Shown here one piece after another: positions 12,182-26,324 of a stretch of DNA of 29,022 nucleotides. The notes below the pieces were generated by a model, which saw nothing but the letters and a program-made list of their open reading frames with translations, did no database searches and was not told the origin of the DNA. The stretch's first letter is position 1. Every line of letters begins with the position of its first letter. This stretch comes from a virus. The position numbers and the translations under genes are program-made. The stretch spans positions 2,660-31,681 of IMG/VR virus record IMGVR_UViG_3300000116_000109; one strand, 5' to 3'.

Positions 12182-12445
12182 ATGAAAGACTATCAATTTA
12201 TTAAATCAAATAAGGAGTATGCTCTACTTTCTGGCAGAGCTAAAAGTACAGTCATTAAACTTCCTGAAGAGTGGGAAGAATTTGTTGACTTGTCTAAAAT
12301 TACAGTAAACTTAACTCCAATTGGAGCAAATCAAAATCTTATTGTAAAAAGGACACAGGGACGTGAGGTGCATCTGCAAACGAACGGGTTGCCCGTGGAC
12401 TGCTACTACATGATTATGGGTGAGGTGCTTGACAAGGACGCTTGA
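12182..12445 (+). CDS. small structural protein homologous to the C-terminal domain of the 337-aa protein
   Basis: This 87-aa protein starts five bases after the previous stop. It contains VIKLPEEWEEFVDLSKITVNL and ends with a strand pattern (PVDCYYMIMGEV) that aligns with residues about 240-310 of the protein at 9761 (VIEVPDYW...ITVNLTPIG...IKCHYTVYGE). The DNA around the shared motif is also close (25 of 27 bases match between 10541-10567 and 12299-12325, counted by eye), suggesting a duplication. It is a stand-alone copy of a beta domain and may cap or decorate the same structure. Its last third is clearly GC-richer than neighbouring DNA and holds the -35 box of the promoter at 12429. Confidence 0.68.
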   Translation: MKDYQFIKSNKEYALLSGRAKSTVIKLPEEWEEFVDLSKITVNLTPIGANQNLIVKRTQGREVHLQTNGLPVDCYYMIMGEVLDKDA

Positions 12446-12457
12446 GCACCCTATAAT
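12429..12457 (+). promoter_or_regulatory. consensus sigma-70 promoter (host-type, early-like)
   Basis: TTGACA (12429-12434), a spacer of exactly 17 nt, then TATAAT (12452-12457): both hexamers match the consensus. The expected start lies near 12463-12466, just before the 60-aa gene and tRNA-Leu. The -35 box is inside the end of the preceding coding sequence. Cyanophage early promoters are host sigma-70-like, whereas structural genes use T4-late-like boxes, so this likely gives the islet separate and earlier transcription. Confidence 0.85.
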
Positions 12458-12480
12458 ATACAGGTAATCAAACGAACCCC

Positions 12481-12663
12481 ATGCAAGACGAATTCCTCAC
12501 CCGTTGTGTAGTAGATCCTGTTAAGCGCAGTATCTACCTTTATTCGAATGAGGGTGATGAAAAAACTGTTACTTGTGAAACAGTTGAACAATTCATGAAC
12601 GTATTGGAATTTGTGCGTGCTACTTGTAACGAAGAAACCATTGCATATGCTAGTCCACTCTGA
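12481..12663 (+). CDS. conserved small acidic protein, unknown function
   Basis: This 60-aa protein is the first gene after the sigma-70 promoter, with ATG at 12481 about 15-18 bases into the predicted transcript and no strong Shine-Dalgarno sequence. It begins MQDEFLTRCVVDPVKRSIYL and continues with an acidic helix (ETVEQFMNVLEFVRATC). It looks like the small early proteins common in T4-like cyanophages, but no function is known to me. Three Cys residues are present with no obvious metal-binding spacing. Its end overlaps a possible upstream start of the next gene. Confidence 0.6.
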   Translation: MQDEFLTRCVVDPVKRSIYLYSNEGDEKTVTCETVEQFMNVLEFVRATCNEETIAYASPL

Positions 12664-12698
12664 TAAGCTATACGAAGAAGTCCTCAAGTTTTATAGGT

Positions 12699-12890
12699 AT
12701 GCGCCCAGAAACCAGAAAGTCAATGGAGATGCTATTCTCCGCAAAATGGAATCTTCCAAAAGCAGCAAAGAATGCTGGTTTAACCAACAAGGAGATGAAA
12801 ATTACATTTAACGAATATTGTACTTTTCATCCTTCTACTTACGAAAATCCTAAAGAAGTTTTACTGCCCCGACCACATTTCCCTGGATAG
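12699..12890 (+). CDS. small helical, HTH-like protein (possibly the 3' part of a frameshifted gene)
   Basis: This 63-aa reading frame starts at ATG 12699. Its core, RKSMEMLFSAKWNLPKAAKN followed by AGLTNKEMKITF, has the spacing of a helix-turn-helix (A-x-x-A-G-L-T), so DNA binding is possible. Immediately upstream, in another frame, 12647-12697 encodes a sensible helical peptide ending KLYEEVLKFYR, which would fuse naturally to MRPETRK by a +1 shift near 12695-12699. The native gene may therefore be 12647-12890 with a frameshift, or there may be two overlapping genes. It ends nine bases before the tRNA-Leu gene. Confidence 0.55.
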   Translation: MRPETRKSMEMLFSAKWNLPKAAKNAGLTNKEMKITFNEYCTFHPSTYENPKEVLLPRPHFPG

Positions 12891-12899
12891 GGTTTTTCT

Positions 12900-12984
12900 G
12901 CGAGTATGGCGGAATCGGTAGACGCACCAGACTTAAAATCTGTTGGGCATTGTGCCCGTGGGAGTTCAAGTCTCCCTACTCGCA
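12900..12984 (+). tRNA. tRNA-Leu (anticodon UAA)
   Basis: The sequence folds as a class II tRNA. The acceptor stem GCGAGTA pairs with TACTCGC (12977-12983), with discriminator A at 12984. The anticodon loop CTTAAAA carries TAA at 12934-12936. A long variable arm (TGGGC/GCCCG) is present, and the T arm GGGAG-TTCAAGT-CTCCC is canonical. No CCA is encoded. UUA is a frequent Leu codon in the AT-rich genes here, so supplementing it is plausible. Confidence 0.95.
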
Positions 12985-12985
12985 T

Positions 12986-13008
12986 TACCCTAAATATCCT
13001 TTAGGGTA
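12986..13008 (+). other. perfect 9-bp hairpin just after tRNA-Leu
   Basis: TACCCTAAA (12986-12994) pairs with TTTAGGGTA (13000-13008) around a TATCC loop. There is no U-tract after it, so a strong intrinsic terminator is unlikely. It may delimit tRNA 3' processing or stabilise the upstream RNA. The left arm and loop also contain CTAAATA, which resembles a late box. Confidence 0.6.
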
Positions 13009-13020
13009 CGAATTAGTCCC

Positions 13021-13290
13021 ATGAAATACCGTATAGACGCTAGATACGTTTGGTATAATAAGGGAAAAATGATAGTCTTAATGTATTTCATACAAGGACT
13101 TCCATTTACTTTTGATGAATTGCCTGATGATGGACTCTACGATTTGAGTGCTATTGAGTTAGCAGATTGTGAAAGAAGATGGGAACCAGAAGAGGTTTAT
13201 AAAACATCTTTCTATTTAATTGAAGAAGAAATGCATCCCCTTATGTTTGATGTAGAATTAGAAAATCCAGAGTGTATGCCTGCAGACTAA
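13021..13290 (+). CDS. small acidic protein of unknown function
   Basis: This 89-aa protein starts at ATG 13021, 12 bases after the hairpin, with no clear ribosome-binding site. It is basic and aromatic at the N terminus (KYRIDARYVWYNKGKMIVLM) and strongly acidic afterwards (FDELPDDGLYDLSAIEL, then RRWEPEEVYKTS). No known domain is recognised. It sits between the two tRNA genes in the islet, a usual place for small cyanophage accessory genes. Confidence 0.5.
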   Translation: MKYRIDARYVWYNKGKMIVLMYFIQGLPFTFDELPDDGLYDLSAIELADCERRWEPEEVYKTSFYLIEEEMHPLMFDVELENPECMPAD

Positions 13291-13293
13291 AAA

Positions 13294-13374
13294 GTGATAA
13301 ATTTTATTGATGATTTTTTAGATGAAGACAAGTATCATGATTTGTATGAATATTGTCTCCATGCACCATGTTAA
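13294..13374 (+). pseudogene. N-terminal remnant of a 2OG-Fe(II) oxygenase gene
   Basis: A 26-codon frame starting with GTG 13294 (three bases after the previous stop) encodes a peptide with the core INFIDDFLDEDKYHDLYEYC and stops at TAA 13372. 'I-x-x-I-D-x-F-L' followed by an amphipathic helix is how many cyanophage 2OG/Fe(II) oxygenases begin. The rest of such a gene is missing, and tRNA-Thr begins six bases later. It appears to be a truncated gene start. A genuine mini-gene is possible but less likely. Confidence 0.5.
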
Positions 13375-13380
13375 ATATAT

Positions 13381-13454
13381 GCCACTTTAGCTCAGTTGGA
13401 TAGAGCAACGGTTTTGTAAACCGTAGGTCGTCGGTTCAAGTCCGACAAGTGGCT
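13381..13454 (+). tRNA. tRNA-Thr (anticodon UGU)
   Basis: Complete cloverleaf: acceptor GCCACTT pairs with AAGTGGC (13447-13453), discriminator T at 13454. The D arm is GCTC/GAGC. The anticodon stem ACGGT/ACCGT encloses loop TTTGTAA with anticodon TGT at 13415-13417. The T arm GTCGG-TTCAAGT-CCGAC is canonical. No CCA is encoded. ACA is common in the structural genes, so this tRNA may aid their translation. Confidence 0.95.
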
Positions 13455-13472
13455 TTTTAAATATTCTACAAT

Positions 13473-14093
13473 ATGTCCTATCAGTGCGTCATATATAATC
13501 CACAACTTCCAAATCAAATCATAACTGAAGTGGAAAATGAAATTAGTGCTAATGTAGAAGTTGTTAATTCTTCTGTAGATAATTTTGAAAATAAAATCTT
13601 GCTAAAATCAGTAAGAAGTTCAAAACACGCTTGGATTTCTACAGATTACTGGATTGCTTCTCACATTTGGTTTTATATTCAAAAAGCAAATGAAAGTAAT
13701 TTTTTATATGACATAACAAAATTTGAAAACGATGTCATACAATATACAACATATGACGTTGGAGATCATTATAATTGGCATGTAGATTATTCTATATCTA
13801 CTAATATTAACAAAAGCGTTGGTAATAATTTTGAAGAAAATACTCTAAACTCTGTTTTAGTAAAAAATCAAGAAATAAGAAAATTATCTTTTGTAATGCA
13901 GTTATCTGATCCTTCTGATTATGAAGGAGGAGAATTACAGTTTCTTGACGATTCTGATAATATATATTATGCTCCTAAAGAAAAAGGAACTATAATAGTT
14001 TTTGACTCTAGAACGAAACATAGAGTTAGAAAAATTAAAAAAGGTTTCAGAAAAAGTATTGTTGGTTGGGTTATGGGTCCAAGATGGAAATGA
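13473..14093 (+). CDS. 2OG-Fe(II) oxygenase, PKHD/prolyl-hydroxylase-like
   Basis: This 206-aa protein shows the double-stranded beta-helix landmarks of a 2-oxoglutarate/Fe(II) dioxygenase. The HxD pair is His103-x-Asp105 in YNWHVDYS, followed by RKLSFVMQLSD, the turn YEGGELQF, the distal His183 in FDSRTKHRV, and Arg193 (ten residues on) for 2-oxoglutarate binding. It ends with the signature GW-x-x-GPRWK. The family hydroxylates protein or small-molecule substrates; the substrate here is unknown. The gene starts 18 bases after tRNA-Thr and its stop overlaps the next start (ATGA). A close paralogue lacking both His residues lies at 25206. Confidence 0.85.
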   Translation: MSYQCVIYNPQLPNQIITEVENEISANVEVVNSSVDNFENKILLKSVRSSKHAWISTDYWIASHIWFYIQKANESNFLYDITKFENDVIQYTTYDVGDHYNWHVDYSISTNINKSVGNNFEENTLNSVLVKNQEIRKLSFVMQLSDPSDYEGGELQFLDDSDNIYYAPKEKGTIIVFDSRTKHRVRKIKKGFRKSIVGWVMGPRWK

Positions 14094-14713
14094 ACGTTGA
14101 ACTATTGCCTCTTTTCAGTACACCTGTTTTTGTTGTTGATATCGAGGAGGATTTAGGTGATATCTCCACCTTTATAAAGTATTTTGAGTATCAAGATATA
14201 AATGTAGATGGAGATAATGAATGTGCTACAACTAAAAAATTAAATGTCCTTGAACATGCAGAATTGCTTGAGCTCAAGAAAACTATAATTAAACACTTCA
14301 ATTATATTAAAAATGAAGTGTTTAAGTATACTGATACTCAATTTGAGATTACTACATCTTGGGGAACTAGGGTAGGAAAAAACTCTACTAGTCATTATCA
14401 CAATCATAGAAATGCATTGTATAGTGGAGTATTTTATTTTGAAAATTATGGAAAAAATAATTCTTTCATAGAATTTTCTTCTTTCTCTAAAGAACAATTT
14501 GATTTGAATAATTCGGAGAGAAATATTTTTAATAGTGAGAATTGGACTATTGAAACCAAGAAGAACAGACTAATTATTTTCCCAAGCAATATTTACCATA
14601 GAGTAGTATACAAGAACTGTAATTTGTATAGATATTCTTTAGCTTTCAATTTAATTCCAACAAAATCATTTGGGTATCTTGATAGCAGTGTCAATATAAA
14701 TCTAGTAAGATGA
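14090..14713 (+). CDS. putative 2OG-Fe(II) oxygenase, PF13759-like
   Basis: I prefer ATG 14090 (207 aa), which forms an ATGA overlap with the previous stop; in-frame ATGs also exist at 14066 and 14084. The start ELLPLFSTPVFVVDI is typical of this phage oxygenase group, which begins with 'LFxTPVxxxD'. The metal site is likely the HxH-type His102/His104 in SHYHNHRNALYSGVFYF, with distal His170 (FPSNIYHRV) and Arg181 (YRYSLAFN). Such proteins are common in T4-like cyanophages, often near tail-fibre genes, and their substrates are not known. The following 56-aa gene also begins in an ATGA overlap. Confidence 0.8.
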   Translation: MNVELLPLFSTPVFVVDIEEDLGDISTFIKYFEYQDINVDGDNECATTKKLNVLEHAELLELKKTIIKHFNYIKNEVFKYTDTQFEITTSWGTRVGKNSTSHYHNHRNALYSGVFYFENYGKNNSFIEFSSFSKEQFDLNNSERNIFNSENWTIETKKNRLIIFPSNIYHRVVYKNCNLYRYSLAFNLIPTKSFGYLDSSVNINLVR

Positions 14714-14880
14714 AAATAAATCTCTGGTATTCCAAAAGCATGGCTCAATGGAGATGGACTTTATGTACTAAAAAATATAATAAATGTCATCAAGATGAAC
14801 AGCACTCTGGACAAAGAGAAAATCTTAGAGATGCCATGAACGATGTTGCAAATACAGTGGAGTATATTTTAAATGGTTGA
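14710..14880 (+). CDS. small conserved Trp-rich/helical protein, unknown function
   Basis: This 56-aa gene starts at ATG 14710 in an ATGA overlap with the preceding stop and ends at TGA 14878, overlapping the next start by 8 bases. It begins MKINLWYSKSMAQWRWTL and ends with an amphipathic helix (RDAMNDVANTVEYILNG). Tight coupling on both sides argues strongly that it is translated and functionally tied to the oxygenases. I recognise this kind of small protein from cyanophage oxygenase neighbourhoods, but no function is established. Confidence 0.62.
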   Translation: MKINLWYSKSMAQWRWTLCTKKYNKCHQDEQHSGQRENLRDAMNDVANTVEYILNG

Positions 14881-15442
14881 TAATTTTATTTTAGAGTTAG
14901 ATAATTTTTTGACGCCAGAACAGTGCGAACATTACATTGACTATTTTGAGGCAATGAAAGAGAACGGGTTTACTAACACTAGACTTAATCAAAATCGAAA
15001 ACCTCATGATGTTGAAGATCAGGAACATTTCATTCACGAATGTGTACAATATACATCTTTTAGGCCAGGGAAAATTCTTATTGATGAATTTTGGGAAAAT
15101 GCGTATCCAAAGTATGCAGAAAAATATAGCATTCTTCTTGATTCTTCAGAACATAATATAGATAAATTAAAAATTCAGAAGACAGAACCTGGGCAAGGAT
15201 ATCATTCATGGCACTATGAAACTCTTGGTAAAGTAAATCGCGATAGACTTTTATTTTTTATTGTATACTTAAACGATATTGAAGAAGGTGGAGAAACTGA
15301 ATTTCTTTATCTTAGAAAAAGAATTAAAGCAAAGCAAGGAAAACTAATTATGGCACCTGCAGGATTTACTCATACTCATAGAGGAAATCCTCCCCTAAGC
15401 GAAACAAAATATATTATGACAGGGTGGGTGGAATATACGTAA
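14873..15442 (+). CDS. 2OG-Fe(II) oxygenase, prolyl 4-hydroxylase-like
   Basis: This 189-aa protein begins with an FLTPEQCEHYIDYFE helix like prolyl 4-hydroxylases. Catalytic region: His114-x-Glu116 in YHSWHYE, the GGETEFLY turn (139-146), His169 in THTHRGNPP, and Lys179 ten residues later in TKYIMTGW, which would bind the 2-oxoglutarate carboxylate. The metal-binding acid is Glu rather than the usual Asp. That is tolerated in some members but could lower or alter activity. It overlaps the 56-aa gene upstream and the Mom-like gene downstream. Substrate unknown. Confidence 0.85.
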   Translation: MVDNFILELDNFLTPEQCEHYIDYFEAMKENGFTNTRLNQNRKPHDVEDQEHFIHECVQYTSFRPGKILIDEFWENAYPKYAEKYSILLDSSEHNIDKLKIQKTEPGQGYHSWHYETLGKVNRDRLLFFIVYLNDIEEGGETEFLYLRKRIKAKQGKLIMAPAGFTHTHRGNPPLSETKYIMTGWVEYT

Positions 15443-16086
15443 ATCAACACATAATAAGCAATTATACTCAAGTGAAATCAGATTTTTATATAGATAGAGT
15501 TAGTAAAGAAGAAATCAAAGAACTTCTTTATACCCATCACTACTTGAAAGACGAGTCCAAAGATTTCAAATCAGGGTATAACTATGGACTTTTTAAGCGC
15601 ACTGAATGGGAATGCCCTCTTAGGATTGGGGAGTGCCTTGCTGCTTGCGTTTTTACTGGCCTCCCAGTTCCAGAAATTGCCAGGGGAGCATTTGGATTAG
15701 AACGCAATCAGCAAGAAGGTTTATTTGAACTTTCTAGATTATGTGTTCATCCAGAAGTGCAGAAAGAAGAATATAATATTACATCTTGGTTCGTCAGTCG
15801 TTCTATTAAAAAATTCCGTAAAGATGCGAATGTTCGCGCTATTCTTAGTTATGCTGACTCTGCTCACCATAGTGGTATTATATACAGAGCTTGCAATTTC
15901 AACTATTACGGGTTGACAGACGCAAAGAAAGATTTTTATTATAGTGATGGAACTAAGCACTCAAGAGGAAGTGTAAAAGGCGCAGATGGTGAATGGAGAG
16001 ACAGAACCAGAAAACATAGATACTTGATGGTATTTGACAAAAAACTTCAAGTGTTGTGGAAAAAACAAAAATGTGATACTATATAA
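15424..16086 (+). CDS. Mom-like DNA adenine modification protein (GNAT-related)
   Basis: This 220-aa protein starts at GTG 15424 inside the preceding oxygenase (19-base overlap); start choice is uncertain because no ATG occurs early. It has the layout of the phage Mu Mom family: HYLKDESKDFKSGYNYGLF, then CVFTGLPVPE, then FELSRLCVHPEV, then TSWFVSRSIKKF, then ILSYADSAHHSGIIYRAC and NFNYYGLTD, ending with RKHRYLMVF. Mom carries out N6-carbamoylmethylation of adenine to protect phage DNA from restriction; Mom relatives are known in cyanophages. It lies at the end of a coupled oxygenase operon and shortly before a terminator, so the oxygenases may act in the same modification or defence-evasion pathway. 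That link is inference. Confidence 0.8.
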   Translation: MGGIYVNQHIISNYTQVKSDFYIDRVSKEEIKELLYTHHYLKDESKDFKSGYNYGLFKRTEWECPLRIGECLAACVFTGLPVPEIARGAFGLERNQQEGLFELSRLCVHPEVQKEEYNITSWFVSRSIKKFRKDANVRAILSYADSAHHSGIIYRACNFNYYGLTDAKKDFYYSDGTKHSRGSVKGADGEWRDRTRKHRYLMVFDKKLQVLWKKQKCDTI

Positions 16087-16125
16087 TAGTCCGTGTGAAG
16101 GAAGAGCGCACTTAATGTGCAGATG

Positions 16126-16154
16126 AGCATCCAAGTTTCTTGGGTGCTTTTTTC
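16126..16154 (+). terminator. rho-independent terminator of the islet
   Basis: A 10-bp stem, AGCATCCAAG (16126-16135) with CTTGGGTGCT (16139-16148, one G-T pair), closes a TTT loop and is followed by six T residues (16148-16153). It is the best intrinsic terminator in the window and lies 40 bases after the Mom-like gene, before the next fibre gene. Confidence 0.9.
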
Positions 16155-16158
16155 TTAT

Positions 16159-16167
16159 GATAAATAA
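16159..16167 (+). promoter_or_regulatory. T4-late-like promoter box (GATAAATAA)
   Basis: GATAAATAA, 29 bases before ATG 16197 and directly after the terminator. It resembles the TATAAATA late box recognised with gp55-type sigma factors. No -35 is needed for late promoters. Similar boxes precede several other fibre genes here. Confidence 0.55.
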
Positions 16168-25205: not shown

Positions 25206-25706
25206 ATGAATCATACATCTGCGTGGATTTTTACCAATCTACCACCTGAAATAATAAACATAATAGAAGAAACCGCACAAGATAATATAATAAATTCTAA
25301 AATACATTGCAATTCATGGATTGGTGGTTTTTTATGGCATTACATACGAAAATTTAATAATGAAAATTTTAAGTATGACATCAATGACATTGAATGTGAT
25401 GGAATTGAATATATTGAGCAATCAACTGGAGACTCTACTACATGGAGAAATGATATACTTATAAACTCAGAGGAAGATTCAGAAACTGTTAGAAAGTTGT
25501 CCTTTATACTTCAACTTTCGGATCATGACTCCTATGAAGGAGGAAATGTTCAAATTATGAATCAATATGGACAAACATATTTTTTCCCTAGAATAAGAGG
25601 AACTATCATTGTATTCGATTCTAGATCTCAATATAGAATTTGTAAGATAAAGTCTGGAACCAGAAAAAGTCTTGCTGGATGTGTGACTGGGCCAAGATGG
25701 AGATGA
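25206..25706 (+). CDS. 2OG-oxygenase family protein lacking both metal-binding His residues (likely pseudo-enzyme)
   Basis: This 166-aa protein aligns by eye with the oxygenase at 13473, sharing RKLSFILQLSD, YEGG, GTIIVFDSRS, RKSLAG and the C-terminal GPRWR. The metal-binding residues differ: the HxD motif WHVD is WRND here (His to Arg), and the distal His of DSRTKHRV is Tyr in DSRSQYRI. The 2OG-binding Arg appears retained (TRKS). Without either His an Fe(II) site is unlikely, so it is probably a non-catalytic paralogue, perhaps a chaperone or scaffold. The frame is open and tidy, not a decaying pseudogene. It is followed after six bases by an intact-looking 2OG gene. Confidence 0.8.
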   Translation: MNHTSAWIFTNLPPEIINIIEETAQDNIINSKIHCNSWIGGFLWHYIRKFNNENFKYDINDIECDGIEYIEQSTGDSTTWRNDILINSEEDSETVRKLSFILQLSDHDSYEGGNVQIMNQYGQTYFFPRIRGTIIVFDSRSQYRICKIKSGTRKSLAGCVTGPRWR

Positions 25707-25712
25707 ACTGCT

Positions 25713-26324
25713 ATGGATTATTCGCCTACAAAATTTAAAGACTTTGATAAAACTGGATTTTTTATTGTTGAAAATATATGTAATGTAACAGAACTAATAG
25801 AAGAAGTTCCCGAAGAAAGAGGATATATCAGATACCTCAAACCTAATGATAAAGAATATAAACTTGGAAAACAATTTGTCAAAGAAGAATGTGATGATCA
25901 AATGAAGGGATGTTTTTCGAGGTATAAAAACCCAAGATATAAACATTTTCACACTAAACTGAGATTGATTTTGGAGGAAATAATTGGTAAAAAATTATAT
26001 AATACATTTTACTATGACAGATTTTATTTTCCAGGCAATGAATTAAAAAGGCATGTTGATAGACATGCGTGCGAAATATCAATTACACTTCACATTGGTT
26101 CTAATTTAAAACAAGACTGGCCTATCAGTATAGAATCTGTAGATGGAGAAGTTTATGATGTTGAATTAAATCCTGGAGATGCATTGGTGTATAAGGGATG
26201 TGATCGCCCTCATTGGAGAGATGTCATGATTGGAAGAGAATCAGCATACTATCACCAAGCATTTTTTCATTATGTTTTAGCAGATGGAACAAGATGCCAA
26301 TATGCATTTGATGTATGTAAATGA
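25713..26324 (+). CDS. 2OG-Fe(II) oxygenase-like protein
   Basis: This 203-aa protein begins MDYSPTKFKDFDKTGFFIVE, typical of phytanoyl-CoA-hydroxylase-like or general 2OG enzymes. His114-x-Asp116 sits in NELKRHVDRHACEISITLHI, with distal His167 in CDRPHWRD and a possible 2OG-binding Arg175. The stretch VELNPGDALVYKG is the usual beta strand before the distal His. This pattern (RHxDR...SxTLHIG...WPIxIE...PGDxLxYxG...H) is seen in a distinct group of oxygenases that includes rhizobial and marine proteins. It follows the His-less paralogue by six bases and may be co-expressed with it. Substrate unknown. Confidence 0.8.
   Translation: MDYSPTKFKDFDKTGFFIVENICNVTELIEEVPEERGYIRYLKPNDKEYKLGKQFVKEECDDQMKGCFSRYKNPRYKHFHTKLRLILEEIIGKKLYNTFYYDRFYFPGNELKRHVDRHACEISITLHIGSNLKQDWPISIESVDGEVYDVELNPGDALVYKGCDRPHWRDVMIGRESAYYHQAFFHYVLADGTRCQYAFDVCK

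Follow-up and report, generated by a model that had tools for sequence, protein, structure and literature searches.

The window analysed here is the whole stretch of 29,022 nucleotides taken from the virus record IMGVR_UViG_3300000116_000109. Five genes are read from its sequence at 13473-16086, all on the plus strand, in agreement with the original prediction; we refer to them as OxA, OxB, P56, OxC and Mom. They lie within a probable early unit (12429-16149) that runs from promoter to terminator with two tRNA genes inside, sits between late tail genes, and is conserved in cultured and uncultured cyanophages. The features of this island, and the motif that follows it, are:

12429..12457, + strand: sigma-70-type promoter TTGACA-17-TATAAT (12/12 match), probably the early promoter of the island
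12481..12663, + strand: w12481, small conserved cyanophage gene (phrog_662)
12699..12890, + strand: w12699, small conserved cyanophage gene (phrog_1308)
12899..12985, + strand: tRNA-Leu (taa), found with ARAGORN; position shared with S-SM2
13021..13290, + strand: w13021, conserved cyanophage gene (phrog_4134)
13381..13454, + strand: tRNA-Thr (tgt), found with ARAGORN; position shared with S-SM2, Bellamy and SynMITS9220M01
13473..14093, + strand: OxA, 2OG/Fe(II) oxygenase, PiuC/PKHD-like, variable cargo (PF13640, E 4e-14)
14090..14713, + strand: OxB, 2OG/Fe(II) oxygenase, variable cargo (PF13759, E 1e-12; phrog_81)
14710..14880, + strand: P56, conserved Trp-rich small protein, ancestral resident of the site (phrog_2818)
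14873..15442, + strand: OxC, 2OG/Fe(II) oxygenase, prolyl-4-hydroxylase-like, variable cargo (PF13640, E 6e-10)
15472..16086, + strand: Mom, Mom-family (GNAT-like) probable DNA adenine modification enzyme (PF25680, E 2e-20)
16125..16149, + strand: intrinsic terminator ending the island (11-bp stem, then a T run)
16159..16166, + strand: late promoter motif GATAAATA before the fibre gene, read from the sequence

The sequence confirms the predicted ATGA overlaps at 14090 and 14710 and the 8-bp overlap at 14873-14880. A further overlap of 19 bp between OxC and Mom, with Mom starting at GTG 15424, did not hold up, as the 16 extra codons have no conserved counterpart. Mom homologues begin at M/V-KSDFYIDR, which in the window is GTG 15472; since the homologue start is conserved there, we place the start of Mom at this codon, and a 29-bp gap therefore follows the end of OxC. 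Short ATGA overlaps are common in compact phage operons, and overlap alone does not imply joint function.

The identification of the last gene as Mom-type was borne out by a Pfam profile match to PF25680 (73.6 bits; curated cut-off 27.1), by a match to phrog_1384 in PHROGs (E 6e-30), and by the structure of Mu Mom, 8bv8 (S124A), being the top Foldseek match in the PDB (E 1.8e-8). The structure model behind this search is of low confidence (mean pLDDT 62) because its alignment contains close relatives only, and it was used for fold confirmation only. In the annotated Mu sequence S124, the serine mutated in 8bv8, sits in NSES, an NxxS motif. The window Mom has N102-I-T-S105, of which N102 and S105 are invariant in 47 sequences, and NxxS is common to the Moms of Mu, A511, Vaquero and CRP-212 in an alignment that we read by hand, since MAFFT set a 3-residue indel differently for Mu. 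With 8bv8 first in the fold search and its serine conserved, it is likely that the window Mom modifies adenines in DNA. In addition to PF25680, the GNAT-like fold and the catalytic-serine NxxS, it has the conserved HY, EL-x-R and S-[YF]-AD motifs in common with Mu Mom. The two proteins differ in sequence, with about 17-19% identity, and in context: there is no Com upstream in the window, and, whereas mom of Mu is a late gene (PMC4461284), the promoter of the T4-like cyanophage island that houses the window gene is probably an early one.

Hundreds of IMG/VR contigs (369 in one search, at least about 600 in others) encode relatives of the window Mom at 74-91% identity, and judged by sequence the protein belongs to a large clade known from hundreds of metagenomic contigs. 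Among 50,697 phage records, a comparison that records very near the window may lie outside, its closest relative is in Roseobacter phage CRP-212 (51%); cyanophages in the same collection, S-SSM7 and S-SSM6a, have only a distant Mom relative (25%). Alignment with the CRP-212 protein covers 91-98% of the length; that protein carries no Mom annotation and has MazG and RNR genes as its neighbours in a replication gene region, where neither P56 nor an oxygenase is matched by HMM. This unannotated Mom shares one open frame of 316 aa with a MazG domain (locus L162, 3980-4930), possibly a Mom-MazG fusion; the annotation of the record covers the MazG part only. Mom-REase fusion systems occur in jumbo phages (PMC7824862), which are similar in pairing Mom-family adenine modification with a large phage, although the window Mom has no fused endonuclease domain. 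Our literature search, in which subscription papers were only partly covered, found no paper on a cyanophage Mom or on this cluster.

The expression signals of the island are conserved. Of 84 distinct loci, 69 have a promoter match of 11/12 or better at the corresponding position, as against 0 of 84 shuffles, and so do the cultured phages S-SM2, Bellamy, SynMITS9220M01 and S-B05. S-SM2, Bellamy and S-B05 have a comparable stem-loop and T run at the place of the terminator, and GATAAATAAT is also present in S-SM2 and Bellamy. Cyanomyoviruses are described as having sigma-70-like early promoters and NATAAATA late promoters, NATAAATA being the late promoter of S-PM2 (PMC2984593). The count of the late-promoter motif in the window is not above chance; hence, we use only its position before the fibre gene. 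Because the sigma-70 promoter is conserved and these two promoter classes have been described, the motifs suggest that the island is probably read early, within a late tail-gene region.

Cultured phages show what this site looks like without the window's additions. S-SM2, Bellamy and SynMITS9220M01 have the order w12481, tRNA-Leu, w13021 relative, tRNA-Thr, P56, tail fibre, and S-B05 has the same protein order without a match to w13021; in none of the four is there a Mom or an oxygenase at the site. The window agrees with the first three in the order of promoter, tRNA-Leu, w13021, tRNA-Thr, P56 and tail fibre. What it has beyond them is OxA and OxB, placed between tRNA-Thr and P56, together with OxC and Mom, which stand between P56 and the fibre gene. 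Other fillings also occur. In S-SSM7, two annotated 2OG oxygenases lie upstream of P56 at the fibre gene, with no Mom there. In three metagenomic loci (L575, L577 and L582) a relative of OxA (45-46%) occupies the position of OxA without a Mom; after it come a relative of window gene 25713 and, right behind that, P56. A 175-kb contig that bears Mom, and that may be incomplete, has no match to PF13640 or PF13759. Comparison of these sequences shows an ancestral island comprising the promoter, w12481, w12699, tRNA-Leu, w13021, tRNA-Thr, P56 and the terminator, followed by the tail fibre gene.

P56, described in the original prediction as a small Trp-rich protein, is indeed a conserved one: L5, W6, W14-R15-W16, G34 and a C-terminal helix motif are conserved in 61 relatives. 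It has no Pfam family, PHROGs offers only phrog_2818 (function label 'unknown'), and its predicted beta-beta-beta-alpha fold (pLDDT 88.6) has no significant match in the PDB. P56 adjoins Mom far more often than the oxygenases do. Of 104 distinct Mom loci, 77 have P56 immediately upstream of Mom, the two genes usually being about 10 bp apart; in 15 the two are separated by other genes, and 12 have no P56. These positions, together with a P56-Mom pair in another phage backbone beside transaldolase and carbamoyltransferase genes (L006, 4855-5638), could be explained if P56 and Mom were a functional pair, P56 serving as a small partner or translational activator in the manner of Mu Com, with the oxygenases as incidental cargo. 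We regard this as unlikely, though it fares best among the alternatives. P56 is present without Mom in 82 cultured cyanophage records, including those with the same site, and in many contigs, including a second cyanophage group, and a dozen Mom loci manage without it. We rejected a Com-like regulatory role because of this occurrence without Mom and the lack of an invariant cysteine, Com being a CCCC zinc finger (PMC6483171); the locus also departs from the Mu com-mom operon in having no gene of this type overlapping Mom. Insertion of Mom beside a resident gene is the simpler reading, and we infer that P56 is such a resident gene and not a Mom subunit. The L006 pair suggests either transfer of P56 and Mom together or a second insertion of Mom beside P56. 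In the second cyanophage group (L093-L142), P56 is found near pstS, gnd and zwf, and usually adjoins a small CxxC zinc-finger-like gene (phrog_8074).

OxA, OxB and OxC score 53.8, 48.3 and 40.3 bits against 2OG/Fe(II) oxygenase profiles (Pfam cut-off 27). Their description as three different subtypes is fair at the level of Pfam and PHROG families, except that OxA and OxC share PF13640 and phrog_61. The nearest PDB sequences are PiuC structures for OxA (E 5e-4) and bacterial P4H structures for OxC (E 5e-5). A candidate HxD/E...H triad was read by eye, as WHVDY...KHRV in OxA, WHYE...THTH in OxC and, with uncertainty, HYHNH...YHRV in OxB. None of the three is of the TET/JBP or AlkB type, Pfam giving only PF13640 and PF13759 and the nearest PDB sequences being P4H and PiuC. 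OxA and OxB are AT-rich compared with their neighbours (GC of OxA 0.28; window 0.37). Known cyanophage genes resemble them: OxA is 44% identical to the PiuC (T4-GC_28) of S-MbCM25, and part of OxC matches a 2OG oxygenase gene (T4-GC_104) of S-MbCM100 at the DNA level. In those phages the PiuC and T4-GC_104 genes belong to a PiuC-'ferrochelatase' pair or have uvsY, uvsW and gp19 close by; Mom is not among their neighbours. A pair of this kind, as in S-MbCM25, also occurs in the window at 25206-26324, where another phrog_61 oxygenase (25206-25706), downstream of a structural gene, is followed by a 203-aa gene with the PHROGs label 'ferrochelatase', a label that we consider doubtful.

The location of the island directly upstream of a giant fibre gene raises the idea that virion proteins, the tail fibre for one, are substrates of the oxygenases, the island being a host-range or receptor-binding module. 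The resemblance of OxC to prolyl 4-hydroxylases and the further oxygenase beside a structural gene would fit. We nevertheless give this idea a low probability, slightly below that of a P56-Mom pair, since uvsY, uvsW and gp19 also have related cyanophage oxygenases as neighbours, and since the island seems to use an early promoter whereas fibre genes are late.

2OG enzymes act in other phage base hypermodifications. Hence, the five genes had been proposed to form a joint system, and a dedicated multistep pathway can be envisaged in which Mom adds an acetamide to adenine N6, one or more oxygenases hydroxylate it or prepare the substrate, and P56 is an accessory. The genes overlap on one strand in a probable operon, as such a pathway would predict. 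The same proposal called for recurrent co-occurrence of the oxygenases with Mom, and our counts showed none above background. Within 3.5 kb upstream of the fibre gene, with near-duplicates removed, genes of the OxA, OxB or OxC type were present at 14 of 81 Mom-plus sites (17%) and at 14 of 38 Mom-minus sites (37%; Fisher p 0.035), a difference that runs against the proposed link; within 2.5 kb, the counts were 9/82 and 12/43 (p 0.023). Mom-minus sites were gathered with a P56 query and Mom-plus sites with another, such that sampling differs between the groups; hence, the safe conclusion is that the oxygenases show no enrichment with Mom, and we do not claim depletion. No more than roughly a fifth of Mom loci have such oxygenases nearby, and their types differ, while sites lacking Mom have them at least as often. 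The joint system is also not supported by the contents of the site, which may hold P56 without Mom or oxygenase, OxA without Mom, or, as in the large contig, Mom with neither Pfam oxygenase family. With nearest PDB relatives of OxA and OxC that are PKHD and prolyl hydroxylases rather than TET- or AlkB-type enzymes, the multistep pathway is very improbable. Because the oxygenase genes come and go independently of Mom, the sequences argue that a single new DNA-modification pathway is probably not what the five genes encode.

The remaining hint of a link concerns OxC. In a tree of 102 sequences, the full-length OxC proteins adjacent to Mom (from the window, L008 and L066) form one clade with support 0.92; with the partial L022 sequence added, the four still group, with weak support (0.44) in a comparison of the C-terminal part. 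The Moms of these four loci are on separate branches, their common ancestor spanning 77 of 105. The gene order is OxB-P56-OxC-Mom in L008 and P56-OxB-OxC-Mom in L066. Sampling favours the grouping, as it was Mom that led to L008, L022 and L066; at the 158 loci where OxC relatives turned up independently of Mom, neither Mom nor P56 is close by, in searches that miss some relatives at this distance. With L008 OxC as the query, no relative was closer than 46%. An OxC clade alongside scattered Moms could mean, with a small chance, a functional pairing in a few phages. In a minority of phages, the OxC-type oxygenase immediately upstream of Mom might even be dedicated to it, hydroxylating the acetamido-adenine that Mom makes to give a new hypermodified base. 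The clade of Mom-linked OxC at four loci, whose Moms branch separately, would be compatible with this, but we hold it to be a long shot.

We strongly favour a reading in which genes were inserted one after another into an accessory-gene island among the tail genes of a T4-like cyanophage, with Mom acting alone and the oxygenases as independent cargo. The island would have received Mom and, separately, oxygenases beside the resident P56, and a host-type RNA polymerase would transcribe it early. By analogy with Mu Mom, the window Mom, most likely a stand-alone DNA adenine modifier, would attach a methylcarbamoyl (acetamido) group to the N6 position of adenines in the DNA of the phage, and the modified adenines would block host restriction enzymes. 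The targets that the oxygenases hydroxylate would most likely be side chains of proteins or small molecules and not the Mom product, given the similarity of OxC to prolyl 4-hydroxylase and of OxA to PiuC.

Among T4-like cyanophages known from metagenomes only, a Mom-type gene is common, and isolates in the searched collection lack it. Since the gene is common in these phages, N6-modified adenine may be widespread in the DNA of wild cyanophages. The island offers a clean before-and-after comparison for the role of Mom in a cyanophage. It also carries a caution: tight gene overlap at a cargo site is a poor basis for reading a pathway, for Mom and the oxygenases may each be present or missing at one and the same site.

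The genes that separate P56 from Mom at 15 loci are oxygenases in seven, an unclassified 184-aa family (u9) in four and GIY-YIG homing endonucleases in four. The idea that only oxygenases are inserted there held for the first 9 separated loci, counting u9, and failed at 15 on account of the four GIY-YIG genes. As neither Pfam nor PHROGs recognises u9, we rejected its assignment as an oxygenase and left it unclassified. It is found at L020 (5467-6021), and also at L021, L028 and L324, and has a possible HxD...H pattern. GIY-YIG homing endonucleases lie directly upstream of Mom at L350 (3859-4482), L372 (3754-4482), L415, L472 and L395.
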